Program-made: the position numbers and the translations under genes
Part shown: in pieces, positions 3,219 through 9,228 of the stretch
Position numbering within the stretch: the first letter of the stretch is position 1
Layout of the letters: each line of letters starts with the position of its first letter
The notes under the pieces: generated by a model
Database searches by the model: none
The model's input: the letters and a program-made list of their open reading frames with translations, nothing else
What the model was told of the DNA's origin: nothing
Assembly: GCA_011620245.1 (NCBI GenBank)
Contig: WOZN01000016.1
Coordinates: 1-10,358, forward strand
DNA from: Acidovorax sp.
Lineage (GTDB): Bacteria; Pseudomonadota; Gammaproteobacteria; Burkholderiales; Burkholderiaceae_C
DNA length: 10,358 nt
Direction of reading: 5' to 3'

Positions 3219-4310
3219 ATGTCAGTCACCGAACAGGGCCTCTTGGCCGCAATTTCCAGCGTGCTGGACCCCCATACCGGCCAGGATTTCGTCAGCACCC
3301 GCGCGCTGCGCAATGTGCAGATCACTGGCGGCGACGTGGCCTTTGATGTGGAGCTGGGTTACCCCGCCAAGAGCCTGGTGCCCGAGCTGCGCCGCAGCCT
3401 GGTGGCCGCGGCGAAGGGCGTGGCCGGGGTGGACAATGTGTCGGTCAACATCACCACCAAGGTGGTGGCGCATGCCGTGCAGCGCGGCGTGCAGCTCTTG
3501 CCGCAGGTCAAGAACATCATTGCCGTGGCCTCGGGCAAGGGCGGCGTGGGCAAAAGCACCACTGCCGCCAACCTGGCGCTGGCGCTGGCCGCCGAGGGTG
3601 CCAGCGTGGGCGTGCTGGATGCCGACATCTACGGCCCCAGCCAGCCCATGATGCTGGGCATCAACCGCCGCCCCGAAAGCGACGATGGCAAGACCATGGA
3701 GCCGCTGGAGAACTACGGCGTGCAGGTCATGTCCATCGGTTTCCTGGTGGACCAGGACGAAGCCATGATCTGGCGCGGCCCCATGGCCACGCAGGCGCTC
3801 GAGCAGCTCTTGCGCCAGACCAACTGGAAAGACCTCGACTACCTCATCATCGACATGCCGCCCGGCACCGGCGACATCCAGCTCACGCTGTCCCAGCGCG
3901 TGCCCATGACCGGCGCCGTGATCGTCACCACGCCGCAGGACATCGCGCTGCTCGACGCCAAGAAGGGCATCAAGATGTTTGAGAAGGTGGGCGTGCCCAT
4001 CCTGGGCATCGTCGAGAACATGGCCGTGCATGTGTGCAGCAACTGTGGCCATGTGGAGCATATCTTTGGCGCCGATGGCGGCAAGAAGATGGCGGCGCAA
4101 TACCACATGGACTACCTGGGCGCGCTGCCGCTGGACATGCAGATCCGCCTGCAGGCCGACAGCGGCAAGCCCACCGTGGTGGCCGACCCCGACGGGGAGG
4201 TGGCGCAGATCTACAAAAAGGTGGCGCGCGATGTGGCGGTAAAAATCGCCCAGAAGGCCAAGGACTTCTCCAGCAAGTTCCCCACCATCTCGATCAGCAA
4301 GAACACCTGA
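3219..4310 (+). CDS. apbC: ApbC/Mrp, iron-sulfur cluster carrier ATPase
   Basis: Cytosolic P-loop ATPase of the Mrp/NBP35 family that binds a [4Fe-4S] cluster and delivers it to target proteins. The 363 residues are typical for bacterial ApbC. An N-terminal MIP18/DUF59 domain spans about residues 1-85. The deviant Walker A GKGGVGKS is at 106-113, the ADIYGPSQP motif at 135-143, and DMPPGTGD, the Walker B/switch region, at 212-219. The cluster-binding CSNC motif (C273, C276) bridges the dimer. The start is supported by a Shine-Dalgarno eight bases upstream. It is followed after 74 bases by the formate dehydrogenase genes on the same strand. Co-transcription with an enzyme needing many Fe-S clusters would make sense, but ApbC also serves general Fe-S assembly. 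Confidence 0.96.
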   Translation: MSVTEQGLLAAISSVLDPHTGQDFVSTRALRNVQITGGDVAFDVELGYPAKSLVPELRRSLVAAAKGVAGVDNVSVNITTKVVAHAVQRGVQLLPQVKNIIAVASGKGGVGKSTTAANLALALAAEGASVGVLDADIYGPSQPMMLGINRRPESDDGKTMEPLENYGVQVMSIGFLVDQDEAMIWRGPMATQALEQLLRQTNWKDLDYLIIDMPPGTGDIQLTLSQRVPMTGAVIVTTPQDIALLDAKKGIKMFEKVGVPILGIVENMAVHVCSNCGHVEHIFGADGGKKMAAQYHMDYLGALPLDMQIRLQADSGKPTVVADPDGEVAQIYKKVARDVAVKIAQKAKDFSSKFPTISISKNT

Positions 4311-4384
4311 GCGGGTGGCGGCACCGGGGCCGGGGGATGCATGCAAAATCTTCGCAGTACATCGCCAACACGATTGCGGACCCC

Positions 4385-6319
4385 ATGACATCCAATCCCC
4401 CACCAGCCGCCGTGCCCCTGGCCACACCGGACGACATGCGTGCGCTCATCCGCAGCAAAAGCCGTCTCAAGGGCCGCCAGCCCGAATATGCTGCCATGGC
4501 CGAGGTGGCGCAGCTGCTGGGGCCGCGCCTGGCTGGCGGGTTCCGGCGTGACTTGTTGATTGAATACCTGCACCGCCTGAACGACCATTTCGGCGTGCTG
4601 CACGACCGCCACCTGGTGGCGCTGGCAAAGCAGATGAACCTGCCCATGGCCGAGGTGTACGAGGTGGCCAGCTTCTACCACCATTTCGAGATCGTGCGCG
4701 GCGAGGACGCCCAGGCCCCGCGCCTGGTGCTGCGCGTGTGCGACAGCCTCAGCTGCAGCATGGCCGGCGCGCGCGAGCTGCTGGCCGCGCTGCCCGGCCG
4801 CCTGCGCGCTGCCGGGCAGGGCGATGTGCAGGTGCAGGCCGTGCCCTGCTTGGGGCGCTGCGAGCAGGCCCCGGTGGCTGTGGTGCACCAGTGCCCGGTG
4901 CCGCACGCCACGGTCGATGCCGTGCTGGAAACGGTGAGATGCAAGCCCAATCGGGCGCTGGCGCTTCATCCACAAGCGCTGGCAGCTATCAATTTTGATG
5001 TTGCCGGGCTGGTGGAGCAAAGCGTGCCTGCGCAGCCGGATGCGATCAGCCCCGCCCACACCGACCTGGCCACCTACCGCGCCCACGGCGGCTACCAGCT
5101 GGCCGCCGCGCTGGTCAATGGCGAGATGGATGCCGAGGCCGTGCTCACGGCCGTGGAAGATTCGGGCCTGCGCGGCCTGGGTGGCGCGGGGTTTCCGGCG
5201 GGGCGCAAGTGGCGCATCGTGCGCGAACAGTCCGCCCTCGCCGAGGGCCGGGCCGCCCCAGGCGAGGCGCCGGCCCCGGTCCCCGGAGCATACGGGGGCC
5301 CTCTCCCGTCTGGGAGCAGCGCACCACGCGAAGCGGGGGAGCGTGGGGGCACAGCCCTCATGGCCGTCAACATCGACGAGGGCGAGCCCGGCACCTTCAA
5401 AGACCGCACCTACCTCGAACGCGACCCGCACCGCTTCCTTGAAGGCGTGCTCATAGCTGCCCAGGTGGTGGGCACCGAGGCCGTCTATATCTACCTGCGC
5501 GACGAATACCATGGCTGCCGCGCGCTGCTGCAGGCCGCGCTCGACGACCTGCATGCCGAGCCCCCATGCCCGCTGCCGCATATCGAGCTGCGGCGCGGCG
5601 CGGGCGCCTATATCTGCGGCGAAGAGTCGGCCATGATCGAGAGCATCGAAGGCAGGCGCGGCGAGCCGCGCCTGCGCCCGCCTTTCATTGCACAGGTGGG
5701 CCTGTTCGGCCGCCCGACGCTGGCGCACAACTTCGAGACGCTGTACTGGGTGCGCGACATCGTCGAACGCGGCCCGCAGTGGTTTGCCGGCTTTGGCCGC
5801 CACGGGCGCCGGGGGCTGCGCAGTTTCAGCGTGAGCGGGCGCGTGCGGCAGCCGGGCGTCAAGCTCGCGCCTGCGGGCATCACGGTGCAGGAACTCATCG
5901 ACGAATACTGCGGCGGCATGCCGGACGGCCACCAGCTCTATGCCTACCTGCCCGGCGGCGCCTCGGGCGGCATATTGCCTGCGCGCCTGAACCAGGTTCC
6001 GCTCGACTTCGACACGCTGCAGCCCTACGGCTGCTTCATCGGCTCGGCCGCCGTCATCGTGCTCAGCCAGCACGACCGGGCGCGCGATGCGGCGCTGAAC
6101 GTGATGCGTTTTTTCGAGCATGAAAGCTGTGGCCAGTGCACGCCCTGCCGCGTGGGCACGGCCAAGGCCGCCGCGCTGATGGCGGCGCCGCAATGGGATG
6201 CCAACCTGCTCGATGACCTGGCGCAGGTGATGGCCGATGCCTCCATCTGCGGGCTGGGGCAGGCGGCGCCCAACCCCATCCGCTGCATCCGGAAATATTT
6301 TGCGCACGAGGTGGCTTGA
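4385..6319 (+). CDS. fdsB: NAD-dependent formate dehydrogenase diaphorase subunit, FdsG-FdsB fusion
   Basis: 644-residue NADH-reducing subunit of a cytoplasmic formate dehydrogenase, combining two proteins that are separate (FdsG and FdsB) in Cupriavidus. Residues ~20-185 are a NuoE/FdsG-like thioredoxin-fold domain with a [2Fe-2S] site at C119, C124, C155 and C159. Residues ~225-644 are a NuoF/FdsB-like domain. Its FMN/NADH motifs are GLRGLGGAGFPAGRKW (261-276), DEGEPGTFKDR (331-341) and GAYICGEESAMIESIEG (407-423), and its [4Fe-4S] ligands are C582, C585, C588 (SCGQCTPC) and C622. The order resembles HoxF of NAD-reducing hydrogenases, but the adjacent FdsA sets formate as substrate. Two repeat-like DNA insertions are translated: one in the inter-domain linker (~188-205) and one of about 40 residues (~283-322) between FMN/NADH motifs. 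The start is uncertain: an in-frame ATG at 4337 adds 16 residues, and neither start has a good ribosome binding site. Confidence 0.93.
   Translation: MTSNPPPAAVPLATPDDMRALIRSKSRLKGRQPEYAAMAEVAQLLGPRLAGGFRRDLLIEYLHRLNDHFGVLHDRHLVALAKQMNLPMAEVYEVASFYHHFEIVRGEDAQAPRLVLRVCDSLSCSMAGARELLAALPGRLRAAGQGDVQVQAVPCLGRCEQAPVAVVHQCPVPHATVDAVLETVRCKPNRALALHPQALAAINFDVAGLVEQSVPAQPDAISPAHTDLATYRAHGGYQLAAALVNGEMDAEAVLTAVEDSGLRGLGGAGFPAGRKWRIVREQSALAEGRAAPGEAPAPVPGAYGGPLPSGSSAPREAGERGGTALMAVNIDEGEPGTFKDRTYLERDPHRFLEGVLIAAQVVGTEAVYIYLRDEYHGCRALLQAALDDLHAEPPCPLPHIELRRGAGAYICGEESAMIESIEGRRGEPRLRPPFIAQVGLFGRPTLAHNFETLYWVRDIVERGPQWFAGFGRHGRRGLRSFSVSGRVRQPGVKLAPAGITVQELIDEYCGGMPDGHQLYAYLPGGASGGILPARLNQVPLDFDTLQPYGCFIGSAAVIVLSQHDRARDAALNVMRFFEHESCGQCTPCRVGTAKAAALMAAPQWDANLLDDLAQVMADASICGLGQAAPNPIRCIRKYFAHEVA
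4958..4999 (-). repeat. Palindromic repeat element copy 1, in frame within fdsGB
   Basis: On the minus strand the order is AATTGATAGCTG (4994-4983), 2 bases, AGCGCTTG (4980-4973), 6 bases, AAGCGC (4966-4961), then CAG. The same arrangement occurs on the plus strand in fdsA at 6680-6716; by hand alignment the two 37-bp cores match at 29 positions. The GCGCTT/AAGCGC arms form a hairpin, and ATCAA-TT-TTGAT (4988-4999) is a second inverted repeat at the edge. The element is read through as part of the FdsG-FdsB linker (ALALHPQALAAINFD). I recall similar sequences as common interspersed repeats in Comamonadaceae, unverified here. Confidence 0.75.
5231..5350. repeat. GC-rich repeat-like insertion translated within the FdsB domain
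   Basis: About 120 bases encoding a Pro/Ala/Gly-rich stretch (residues ~283-322) that interrupts the NuoF fold. The gap from GRKW to DEGEPGTF is about 54 residues, whereas E. coli NuoF has roughly 18. The DNA contains small inverted repeats, GCCCTC-GCC-GAGGGC (5234-5248) and CTCCC-GTCT-GGGAG (5303-5316). Its end (CACGCGAAGCGGGGGAGCGT, about 5325-5344) looks to me like a common intergenic repeat of Comamonadaceae; this is recollection, not a search result. Boundaries are approximate. Confidence 0.55.
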
Positions 6320-9228
6320 TGAATGCGCACACCTTTTCCGCCGCCGGGCCGCTGGTGCCTTTTGAACTGGACGGCCAGAGCATCACGGCCCGCCCGGGCG
6401 AATCCATCCTGCAGGCCGCGCAGCGCCACGGCGTGGCAATCCCCCACCTTTGCCACCAGGACGGCCTGCGCCCCGATGGCAACTGCCGCGCCTGCGTGGT
6501 CGAGATCGCGGGCGAGCGCACGCTCGCCCCCAGCTGCTGCCGCGCCCCCACGGCGGGCATGCAGGTGCAGGCTGCCAGCGCGCGCGCCCGCAAAAGCCAG
6601 CAGATGGTGCTGGAGATGCTGCTGTCGGACATGCCCGATGCAGGCTACCGGTGGAACGACGGGGAGGTGAATACTCCTGAATTGATAGCTGGTAGCGCTT
6701 GCTCAGCAAGCGCTAGAGGCCAATTTGACTCAAATTTTTCTGGCATTTCAGAAGCGGTCGGCCAGCATGGCGAGCTGAGCGCCTGGGCCACGCGCCTGGG
6801 CGTGGCGGTGCGCCCGGCACTCAAGGCCCTGCGCCGCCAGCAGCCCGCGCCCGACCTGAGCCACCCGGCCATGGCCGTCCACCTGGATGCCTGCATCCAG
6901 TGCAACCGCTGCGTGCGCGCCTGCCGCGAGGAACAGGTCAACGACGTGATCGGCCATGCGCTGCGCGGCGCACACAGCAAGATCGTGTTCGACCTCGACG
7001 ACCCCATGGCCGAAAGCACCTGCGTGGCCTGCGGCGAATGCGTGCAGGCCTGCCCCACGGGCGCGCTCAGCCCCGGGACGCATATCGGCTCGCAAAAGGT
7101 GGACCGCAAGGTCGATTCGGTGTGCCCGTTCTGCGGCGTGGGCTGCCTCATCACCTACAACGTGCGCGATGAAAAGATCGTCAGCGTCGAAGGCCGCGAC
7201 GGTCCGGCCAACCATGGCCGTCTGTGTGTGAAAGGGCGCTTTGGTTTCGACTACGCCCACCACCCCGACCGGCTCACGGTGCCCCTGATCCGCAAGCCGG
7301 GCGTGCCCAAGGAGGTGCGGCCCCATGGCGCCGACTGGCGTGACACCTTCCGCGAAGCAACCTGGGACGAGGCACTGGATCTCGCGGCCGGCACGCTCAA
7401 GTCGCTGCGCGACACGCACGGCCTCAAGGCGCTGGCGGGCTTTGGCTCGGCCAAGGGCAGCAACGAAGAGGCCTACCTCTTCCAGAAGCTGGTGCGCACC
7501 GGCTTTGGCAGCAACAACGTGGACCATTGCACGCGGCTGTGCCATGCCTCCAGCGTGGCCGCGCTGCTCGAAGGCGTGGGCTCGGGCGCGGTGAGCAACC
7601 CGGTTCATGGTGTGGAGCACGCCGAGATCATTTTCGTGATCGGCTCCAATCCCACGGCCAACCACCCCGTGGCCGCCACCTGGATGAAGAACGCCGCAAA
7701 ACGGGGCGCGAAGATCGTGCTGGCCGACCCGCGCGTCACCGATATCGGCCGCCACGCCTGGCGCACGCTGCAGTTCAAGGCCGACACCGACGTGGCCATG
7801 CTCAATGCGCTGATCCACACGGTGATCGACGAGGGCCTGGTGGATGAGGCCTTCGTCCGCGACCGCACCAGCGGCTTCGAGGCGCTCAAGGCCAACGTGA
7901 TCGGCTGCAGCCCCGAGGCCATGGCGCCGGTGTGCGGCGTTCCGGCCGAGACGCTGCGCGAGGTGGCGCGGGCGTTCGCGCAGGCCAGGGCATCGATGAT
8001 CCTCTGGGGCATGGGCGTGAGCCAGCATGTGCATGGCACCGACAACGCGCGCTGCCTGATCGCGCTGTGCGCTGTCACCGGCCAGATCGGCAAGCCCGGC
8101 GCGGGCCTGCACCCGCTGCGCGGCCAGAACAACGTGCAGGGCGCCAGCGACGCGGGGCTGATCCCCATGATGTTCCCCGACTACCAGCGCGTGGACAACC
8201 CGCAGGCACATGCCTGGTTCGAAGACTTCTGGGGTACCAGGCTGGATGAGGCACCGGGCTACACGGTGGTCGAGATCATGCACAAGGCGCTGGCGCCCGA
8301 CAGCGACCCGCACAAGGTGCGCGGCATGTACATCATGGGCGAGAACCCCGCCATGAGCGACCCCGACCTGAACCACGCACGCCATGCGCTGGCCAGCCTC
8401 TCGCACCTGGTGGTGCAGGACATCTTCCTGACCGAAACCGCCTGGCTGGCCGACCTGGTGCTGCCCGCCAGCGCCTGGCCCGAGAAGACGGGCACGGCCA
8501 GCAACACCGACCGCATGGTGCAGATGGGCCGCCGCGCTTTGAAGCCGCCGGGCGATGCGCGCCCCGACCTGTGGATCATCCAGCAGATCGCACAACGCAT
8601 GGGCCTGCGCTGGAACTACGAAGGCGAAGAGTCGGGCGTGGCCGCCGTGTACGAAGAGATGCGCCAGGCCATGCACGCCAGCATCCACGGCATCCGCTGG
8701 GCGCGGCTGGAGCGCGATTCGAGCGTGACCTATCCTTGTCTCACCGAAGACGACCCGGGCCAGCCCATCGTCTTCACCGAGAAATTCCCCACGCCCACGG
8801 GGCGCCTGAAGCTGGTGCCCGCCAGCGTGATCCCGGCGGCGGAGACGCCCGATGCCACCTACCCGCTGGTGCTCATCACCGGGCGCCAGCTGGAGCATTG
8901 GCACACGGGCAGCATGACGCGGCGCAGCGCGGTGCTGGACGCCATCGAGCCCATGGCCACGGCGTCGATGCATGGCGACGAGCTGGCGCGGCTGGGCGTG
9001 GCGCCCGGTGCGCTGGTGGGCATCCGCTCACGGCGCGGCATGGTGCAGGTGCGGCTGCGGCGCGACGACGGCATGCCGCGCGGCACGGTGTTCATGCCCT
9101 TTGCCTACGTGGAGGCGGCGGCCAACCTGCTGACCAATGCCGCGCTCGATCCGTTTGGCAAGATCCCCGAGTTCAAATACTGCGCGGTGGCGGTGGAGGT
9201 GTTGCAGGGCAATGGCGAGGTCGCCTGA
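6319..9228 (+). CDS. fdsA: Formate dehydrogenase catalytic subunit FdsA (Mo-bisMGD)
   Basis: 969-residue catalytic subunit that oxidises formate to CO2 at a molybdenum-bis(MGD) centre and passes electrons through Fe-S clusters to FdsGB and NAD+. It has no Tat signal, consistent with a cytoplasmic enzyme. In order: a NuoG/HoxU-like [2Fe-2S] domain (C45, C56, C59 and C73 or C74); two ferredoxin-type [4Fe-4S] motifs (C192/195/198/202 and C235/238/241/245); the catalytic-domain [4Fe-4S] (C269, C272, C276, C303); then the molybdopterin domains. The Mo ligand is C408 with H409 (HCTRLCHAS), and R601 (LRGQNNVQ) matches the conserved active-site arginine, at the same 193-residue spacing as U140-R333 in E. 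coli FdhF. An extra ~30-residue insertion (~116-149) contains a palindromic repeat. The ATG at 6319 overlaps the fdsGB stop by one base and has GAGGTGG upstream. fdsC and fdsD are not seen in the window. Confidence 0.96.
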   Translation: MNAHTFSAAGPLVPFELDGQSITARPGESILQAAQRHGVAIPHLCHQDGLRPDGNCRACVVEIAGERTLAPSCCRAPTAGMQVQAASARARKSQQMVLEMLLSDMPDAGYRWNDGEVNTPELIAGSACSASARGQFDSNFSGISEAVGQHGELSAWATRLGVAVRPALKALRRQQPAPDLSHPAMAVHLDACIQCNRCVRACREEQVNDVIGHALRGAHSKIVFDLDDPMAESTCVACGECVQACPTGALSPGTHIGSQKVDRKVDSVCPFCGVGCLITYNVRDEKIVSVEGRDGPANHGRLCVKGRFGFDYAHHPDRLTVPLIRKPGVPKEVRPHGADWRDTFREATWDEALDLAAGTLKSLRDTHGLKALAGFGSAKGSNEEAYLFQKLVRTGFGSNNVDHCTRLCHASSVAALLEGVGSGAVSNPVHGVEHAEIIFVIGSNPTANHPVAATWMKNAAKRGAKIVLADPRVTDIGRHAWRTLQFKADTDVAMLNALIHTVIDEGLVDEAFVRDRTSGFEALKANVIGCSPEAMAPVCGVPAETLREVARAFAQARASMILWGMGVSQHVHGTDNARCLIALCAVTGQIGKPGAGLHPLRGQNNVQGASDAGLIPMMFPDYQRVDNPQAHAWFEDFWGTRLDEAPGYTVVEIMHKALAPDSDPHKVRGMYIMGENPAMSDPDLNHARHALASLSHLVVQDIFLTETAWLADLVLPASAWPEKTGTASNTDRMVQMGRRALKPPGDARPDLWIIQQIAQRMGLRWNYEGEESGVAAVYEEMRQAMHASIHGIRWARLERDSSVTYPCLTEDDPGQPIVFTEKFPTPTGRLKLVPASVIPAAETPDATYPLVLITGRQLEHWHTGSMTRRSAVLDAIEPMATASMHGDELARLGVAPGALVGIRSRRGMVQVRLRRDDGMPRGTVFMPFAYVEAAANLLTNAALDPFGKIPEFKYCAVAVEVLQGNGEVA
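6680..6736 (+). repeat. Palindromic repeat element copy 2, in frame within fdsA
   Basis: Contains AATTGATAGCTG (6680-6691), then a perfect hairpin TAGCGCTTGC-TCA-GCAAGCGCTA (6693-6715), then a second perfect inverted repeat AATTTGA-C-TCAAATT (6722-6736). The core 6680-6716 matches the inverted copy inside fdsGB. It is AT-richer than the surrounding gene and is translated as LIAGSACSASARGQFDSNF, between the N-terminal [2Fe-2S] domain and the ferredoxin-type domain of FdsA. Confidence 0.85.

Follow-up and report, generated by a model that had tools for sequence, protein, structure and literature searches.

We find that the two formate dehydrogenase genes fdsA and fdsGB in the window (the whole 10,358-nucleotide stretch of Acidovorax sp. 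DNA that was analysed) each carry an in-frame copy of a dispersed repeat of about 66 bp, and that the same repeat lies in frame in at least nine protein families, with more than 100 orthologous copies, fresh or decayed. The reading that we consider probable is that this Comamonadaceae repeat spread long ago and that its in-frame copies were kept as near-neutral linkers, with the left arm perhaps retained as DNA.

The initial annotation had placed a shared core once on each strand of the window, and the match is exact at both places (Table 1). When the window was searched with this pattern (N at the variable places) and up to three mismatches were allowed, two matches were returned, versus none in 200 dinucleotide-preserving shuffles. 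Both copies lie in long open frames, and the two genes translate opposite strands of the repeat, in agreement with the proposal that both are translated, in different frames of the element. The fdsA copy, whose right part holds a second inverted repeat (AATTTGACTCAAATTT), yields a peptide of approximately NTPELIAGSACSASARGQFDSNF and has a DNA fold stronger than that of shuffles (z -3.43); the fold of the fdsGB copy is only slightly above shuffles (z -1.35, with 16 of 200 shuffles folding as well). Insertion at domain borders had also been claimed, and Pfam indeed places both inserts between domains. In FdsA, the repeat (residues ~118-140) follows Fer2_4 (13-86) and precedes 4Fe-4S matches that begin at 183 at the earliest, in the linker between the 2Fe-2S and 4Fe-4S domains and within the residues (109-176) that are unaligned to 7vw6. 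In FdsGB, it sits at ~302-323, between the 2Fe-2S thioredoxin-like domain (2Fe-2S_thioredx, 171-299) and the FMN-binding domain (Complex1_51K, 418-573).

Table 1. Features of the window, numbered from its first base
Feature	Positions	Strand	Remarks
fdsG-fdsB fusion, open frame	4034..6319	+	True start probably downstream
66-bp repeat copy in fdsGB	4937..5002	-	Gene reads the opposite strand of the repeat, approximately CKPNRALALHPQALAAINFDV
Core of the fdsGB copy	4994-4958	-	AATTGATAGCTG-N2-AGCGCTTG-N6-AAGCGC-YAG, exact
GC-rich in-frame insert in the FdsB part	5240..5360	+	Second insert, different from the 66-bp repeat
fdsA, formate dehydrogenase alpha subunit	6319..9228	+	
66-bp repeat copy in fdsA	6672..6737	+	Left arm TACTCCTGAATTGATAGCTG, hairpin TAGCGCTTG..CAAGCGCTA
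Core of the fdsA copy	6680-6716	+	Same pattern, exact

We considered whether the repeat had created the FdsG-FdsB fusion and rejected this, as every locus with both parts has them fused, including five of five loci from other families, and the fusion is found also in families without the repeat. The second, GC-rich insert of fdsGB is present in the window's genome and in G006 (88% identical), partly in G007 and as a 46-base partial match in one locus of G003; most other aligned Acidovorax FdsB sequences lack it, and G004 has a shorter extra stretch at that place.

The repeat itself was defined from 76 copies drawn from four genomes, namely all 10 exact copies of the window's genome, all 24 of G003, 12 of the 24 in G011 and 30 of the 89 in G035. 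Its consensus runs from about -12 to about +54 around GATAGCTG, about 66 bp with sharp borders and a T-rich tail. The unit reads ACTaCaaaTTTGATAGCTGCTAGCGCTT-N7-AAGCGCTAGaGGCCAATTTGACTCaaATTTT and contains a strong hairpin as well as a small second inverted repeat. The loop measures 7 nt in all 119 distinct copies (5-9 allowed), although other loop lengths do exist in a few 28- and 31-base matches elsewhere, and the loop consensus is found either way round with respect to the arms, in 28 and 17 of the 119 copies (at most one mismatch; shuffled-column means 6.9 and 1.4). Stem pair 9-31 covaries, being paired in 95 of 119 copies versus a mean of 84.6, a count reached in none of 2,000 shuffles. 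The GC content averages 43% and ranges from 33 to 68% (118 copies).

That further genomic copies would exist had been predicted, and the exact core is found 10 times in the window's own genome and in 39 of 47 Acidovorax genomes (0 to 89 copies each). A slightly wider pattern, searched for within the family, matches 56 of the 399 genomes and 22 of the 141 genera sampled, with up to 149 copies in one genome; a reversed control pattern gave no match in family genomes among the results listed. The repeat is placed mostly at the 3' ends of genes: of 118 copies, 27 lie between convergent genes, 2 between divergent genes and 50 between genes in the same direction, with 39 unclear or short. In L363 (G020) and L421 (G009) it supplies the last residues and the TAG stop of the upstream gene, which by eye we take to be a cobalamin adenosyltransferase, and in L121 (G016) and L122 (G035) genes that by eye we presume to be sigma-factor-like end in the TAG of a repeat copy. 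A DNA-uptake-like single motif was also considered and is weakened by the occurrence of GATAGCTG 19 times without the hairpin arm versus 200 times with it, a count biased by its source (1.3 Mb of redundant loci, mostly picked for holding the repeat).

Most copies lie outside genes, as the initial annotation had supposed: a codon-bias test finds a coding frame running through 6 of the 76, namely the two copies in the window, fdsA of G035, dsbD, thiL and a patatin-like gene. A peptide-profile search of eight genomes added an error-prone DNA polymerase (G011, G016 and G035), a biotin carboxylase/carboxyltransferase (G011 and G012), EarP (G035) and an acyl-CoA dehydrogenase (G027). Because the long open frames in that search (142-150 matches per genome among the best 150 scored, listed in part) include upstream and non-coding ones, a match was kept if its flanks looked coding or matched a family; FdsA, ThiL, patatin, DsbD, the polymerase, the carboxylase, EarP and the dehydrogenase were kept, with family names checked on one locus per gene. 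A kinase in G009 (L424), presumably SrkA-like as judged by eye, also carries the repeat.

The in-gene copies are stop-free, as claimed. One frame in the plus direction is open in 70 of 118 copies, and which strand is open is largely set by the orientation of the loop, so that the repeat is translatable from either strand: with ATCCATC-like loops 14 of 17 copies have an open plus frame and 1 of 17 an open minus frame, and with GATGGAT-like loops the counts are 9 of 28 and 23 of 28, respectively. Five of the six in-gene copies of the 76-copy sample use the plus frame (..LIAxSAYPSSAxGQFDS..) and FdsGB uses the other strand; the excess of the plus frame among all in-gene copies is partly by design, the peptide search having targeted that frame. 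A minus-frame peptide search of eight genomes gave strong matches only to FdsGB (in seven of them), and no second strand-opposite in-gene copy.

Comparison of orthologues shows, from the distribution of the sequences, that the in-gene copies are old and common to most of the genus by descent rather than recent; the genomes are related, and the counts that follow are thus not independent. For FdsA, 36 of the 47 genus genomes were searched and 25 gave loci used; all 25 hold the repeat or a decayed form, and five of five loci from other families lack it. Among 80 named FdsA loci, 78 of which were readable, the repeat occurs in three, all Acidovorax (L171, decayed, L172 and L216), and one Acidovorax record (L178, Acidovorax sp. 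SRB_14) is without it; the linker in Variovorax, Curvibacter, Polaromonas and others is either short (GYKW...QHGELS) or has other insertions. Orthologues with and without the insert exist, as the initial annotation had anticipated, the residues being absent from FdsA of other genera and families. FdsGB has the in-frame repeat, decayed forms included, in 22 of 22 readable genus loci. Its linker also holds weak relics (4 to 6 mismatches) in Polaromonas, Rhodoferax and two further records (4 of 80 loci), which suggests that the FdsGB copy predates the genus, although equally weak matches also arise by chance elsewhere in those loci.

Loss of the repeat from a genome and decay of its in-gene copies are imperfectly linked. 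No exact copy is present in six genomes (G001, G008, G014, G017, G021 and G044). ThiL has the long form in 40 of 44 genomes and is 18 nt shorter in G014, G017, G021 and G044, where the short form could be either an empty site or what is left of a shortened copy; ThiL of G001 and G008 holds GC-rich relics of the repeat. (In a protein search for outgroup ThiL, the best 120 matches listed were all at least 85% identical, and nearly all the named ones were Acidovorax.) The acyl-CoA dehydrogenase has the repeat in 29 of 30 genomes (absent in G017), and of four more it is absent in G014, G021 and G044 and a relic in G008; the patatin-like gene has it in 27 of 30 (absent in G014, G017 and G044), and of two more it is present in G020 and absent in G021. 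G022 and G032 also have no exact copies, yet they carry recognisable in-gene copies in FdsA and ThiL.

The initial annotation had pictured a linker that is tolerated when it adds 3n bases. A gain of about the repeat's length occurs in FdsA (about 75 nt relative to a Variovorax) and in the patatin-like gene (36 to 84 nt relative to three genomes without the repeat). ThiL (18 nt within the genus, or 7 residues relative to a solved ThiL), the acyl-CoA dehydrogenase (12, 21 or 30 nt) and FdsGB (about 18 nt relative to one Variovorax) gain far less than 66 nt, and native residues were therefore removed too, with or after the arrival of the repeat. Residues 22-392 of the repeat-bearing EarP match a 371-residue family model over its whole length, so that no net gain is seen there. 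None of the sites compared offered an unambiguous empty version showing a target duplication, and of the features of MITEs neither is a target duplication readable there nor do the arms beyond the stem form inverted repeats by eye. At a site upstream of a gene that by eye we take to be uppP, G001 lacks the repeat and its left flank is too diverged for the borders to be read. A different palindrome, coding for a PHPxPxPxGEG-type peptide, occupies the FdsA linker of L173 (Variovorax) and L209 (another Comamonadaceae), indicating that the site accepts unrelated inserts.

At the protein level the FdsA insert looks nearly neutral and is probably a disordered linker: its pN/pS is 0.904, compared with 0.15 upstream and 0.108 downstream (25 genomes; uncorrected proportions), and an AlphaFold model (alignment of 30 sequences) has pLDDT below 50 at residues 110-148. 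Part of the repeat DNA nevertheless appears to be kept fixed while the protein seems not to need it. Within the FdsA insert, Ile is encoded by ATA in 24 of 25 genomes and Ala by GCT in 25 of 25, codons that make up 0.8% of Ile codons and 3.6% of Ala codons, respectively, in the rest of FdsA. A rare codon persists in 90% or more of the genomes (20 compared) in 4 of 21 insert columns and in 0 of 925 columns elsewhere, a thin comparison because a rare majority codon occurs in only 2 of the 925 other FdsA columns; the left-arm rare codons ATA and GCT are present in all 20 genomes. Of 37 ThiL sequences from repeat-bearing or other genomes, G022 and G032 among them, 36 retain ATA, and the codon is replaced (five ATG, one ATC) in G001, G008, G014, G017, G021 and G044, the six genomes set apart as poor in the repeat. 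This retention of left-arm rare codons means that tolerance, as originally claimed, may not be the whole story.

Synonymous differences point in the same direction in some of the genes. The value for FdsA (22 genomes) is 0.074 in the left arm, 0.27 in the hairpin and 0.22 in the right part, with 0.76 and 0.53 in the adjoining codons; the left arm also lies below its flanks in the dehydrogenase (0.122 versus 0.627 and 0.239; 18 genomes) and in FdsGB (0.15 versus 0.317 and 0.312; 22 genomes), and is not below them in ThiL (0.386 versus 0.315 and 0.504; 19 of 44 genomes). The effect is moderate, since six-codon windows as low as or lower than the left arm number 25 of 891 in FdsA and 32 of 405 in FdsGB. 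Upstream of uppP, 21 nt of the left arm (ATACTCCTGTTTTGATAGCTG) are identical in 16 genomes (L454-L469) and the loop and right arm vary; an alternative reading of this identity is the leader of a divergent gene. The opposite strand there resembles a ribosome-binding site and start for a divergent gene.

These observations can be read in several ways. A plain, mostly inactive non-autonomous mobile repeat, with in-gene copies as neutral relics and with codon retention owing to short amelioration time and shared ancestry, is a possibility that we hold only tentatively: the FdsA insert has a pN/pS near 1, left-arm windows are not extreme among all windows, and relics become GC-rich in some genomes, but other codons of the same insert have strongly diverged and ATA and GCT have not, the left arm at uppP is identical while its loop and right arm are not, and each site has its own left-arm variant across species, which argues that recent copying is not the reason. 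The same site-specific variants, together with loops and right arms that are not homogenised, make it very improbable that gene conversion among copies homogenises the repeat, in-gene copies included, even though in-gene copies can be near the consensus and the window's fdsA copy ranks first among the copies scored.

An element acting in RNA, a hairpin at transcript 3' ends or in attenuators that stabilises or ends messages and leaves in-gene copies as by-products, would account for the bias towards gene 3' ends (27 convergent versus 2 divergent of 118), the stem covariation, the T-rich tail and the stop codons given to upstream genes. We think it improbable, because at orthologous sites the left arm, not the hairpin, is most conserved and the right arm is often broken, because in-gene copies would attenuate their own genes, and because an Rfam scan of the window gave no family at threshold. 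It is doubtful, too, that the left arm is the predicted recognition site of a conserved, dispersed Comamonadaceae DNA-binding system, with in-gene sites retained for that DNA role, with translation as a side effect that shaped linkers in metabolic and repair enzymes, and with lineages that lose the system letting their sites decay; this reading is weakened by G022 and G032, which keep the left arm without having exact copies. For such a candidate system, chromosome organisation, repair or a domesticated transposase might be considered, with as little confidence.

In the reading that we favour, of an old dispersed repeat kept as near-neutral linkers, spread would have taken place long ago through a mobilising enzyme acting in trans, by analogy with REP-like and MITE-like elements. 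Where a copy landed stop-free in a linker or loop, selection would have preserved the reading frame and shortened the insert in several genes, so that the in-gene repeat would now act as a flexible stretch of peptide that is nearly neutral. The DNA of the left arm, around AATTGATAGCT, appears to be retained for a non-protein reason, perhaps as a candidate binding site, which is the least certain step.

Rickettsia is the best-known source of translated palindromic repeats, and the parallel drawn by the initial annotation is a fair one. In excerpts of their published description, the Rickettsia palindromic elements are about 150 bp long, form ten families and lie in frame in many unrelated genes, each with an open frame of its own (PMC10969869). 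The repeat shares with them its palindromic form and its in-frame, stop-free placement in many unrelated genes (at least nine protein families here); it differs, as compared by description, in being a single family, about 66 bp long, whose hosts are free-living betaproteobacteria. The GTAG/CGTC REPs, in the sections of their description drawn on here, are short hairpins mostly at gene 3' ends, some wholly intragenic (DnaE2 being one host), that sometimes supply a stop codon (PMC3733652). The hairpin, the 3'-end bias, the supply of stop codons and the intragenic copies, including those in a polymerase, are all shared. The GTAG/CGTC tag is absent from the hairpin end in the 76-copy consensus, where GATAGCTG and GGCC stand beside the stem; the nearest to a tag is ACT(A/C)C, which stands only at the outer left edge of the repeat, 12 nt away. 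Among 30 Y1_Tnp loci, one has a copy within 1.5 kb; a Y1_Tnp gene is present in 44 of 47 Acidovorax genomes, and action in trans could thus still apply. G046 has 37 Y1_Tnp matches, mostly of the same score, versus 0 to 3 elsewhere, which looks like a recent burst of an insertion sequence.

The initial annotation had named no counterpart in Comamonadaceae. An open-access literature search, including two 15-mers of the repeat, found no earlier description of it. According to extracts from its description, however, the dispersed beta-proteobacterial repeat element (BRE) occurs in several Comamonadaceae with some copies entirely within coding sequences, and full-length Bordetella BRE has 75-91 bp, 63.7-78.9% GC and possible tandem arrays (PMC3110155). 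The present repeat is set apart from BRE by published length and composition (about 66 bp, mean 43% GC). We would file it neither as a REP, given the missing tag and a Y1 transposase beside a copy at 1 of the 30 loci, nor as BRE, whose length and GC content are different. It works as the Rickettsia elements and intragenic REPs do, as a dispersed palindrome taken into proteins.

For Rickettsia, weak selection in intracellular life is, in our view, a natural explanation for the uptake of such segments. Here a similar process took place in free-living bacteria, and thiamine-phosphate kinase is one of the enzymes in which the resulting segments became fixed throughout a genus. The many orthologous sites with and without the repeat may serve as a gauge of how proteins absorb foreign segments, and they provide a way to ask whether coding sequence can retain a DNA signal regardless of the protein that it encodes.
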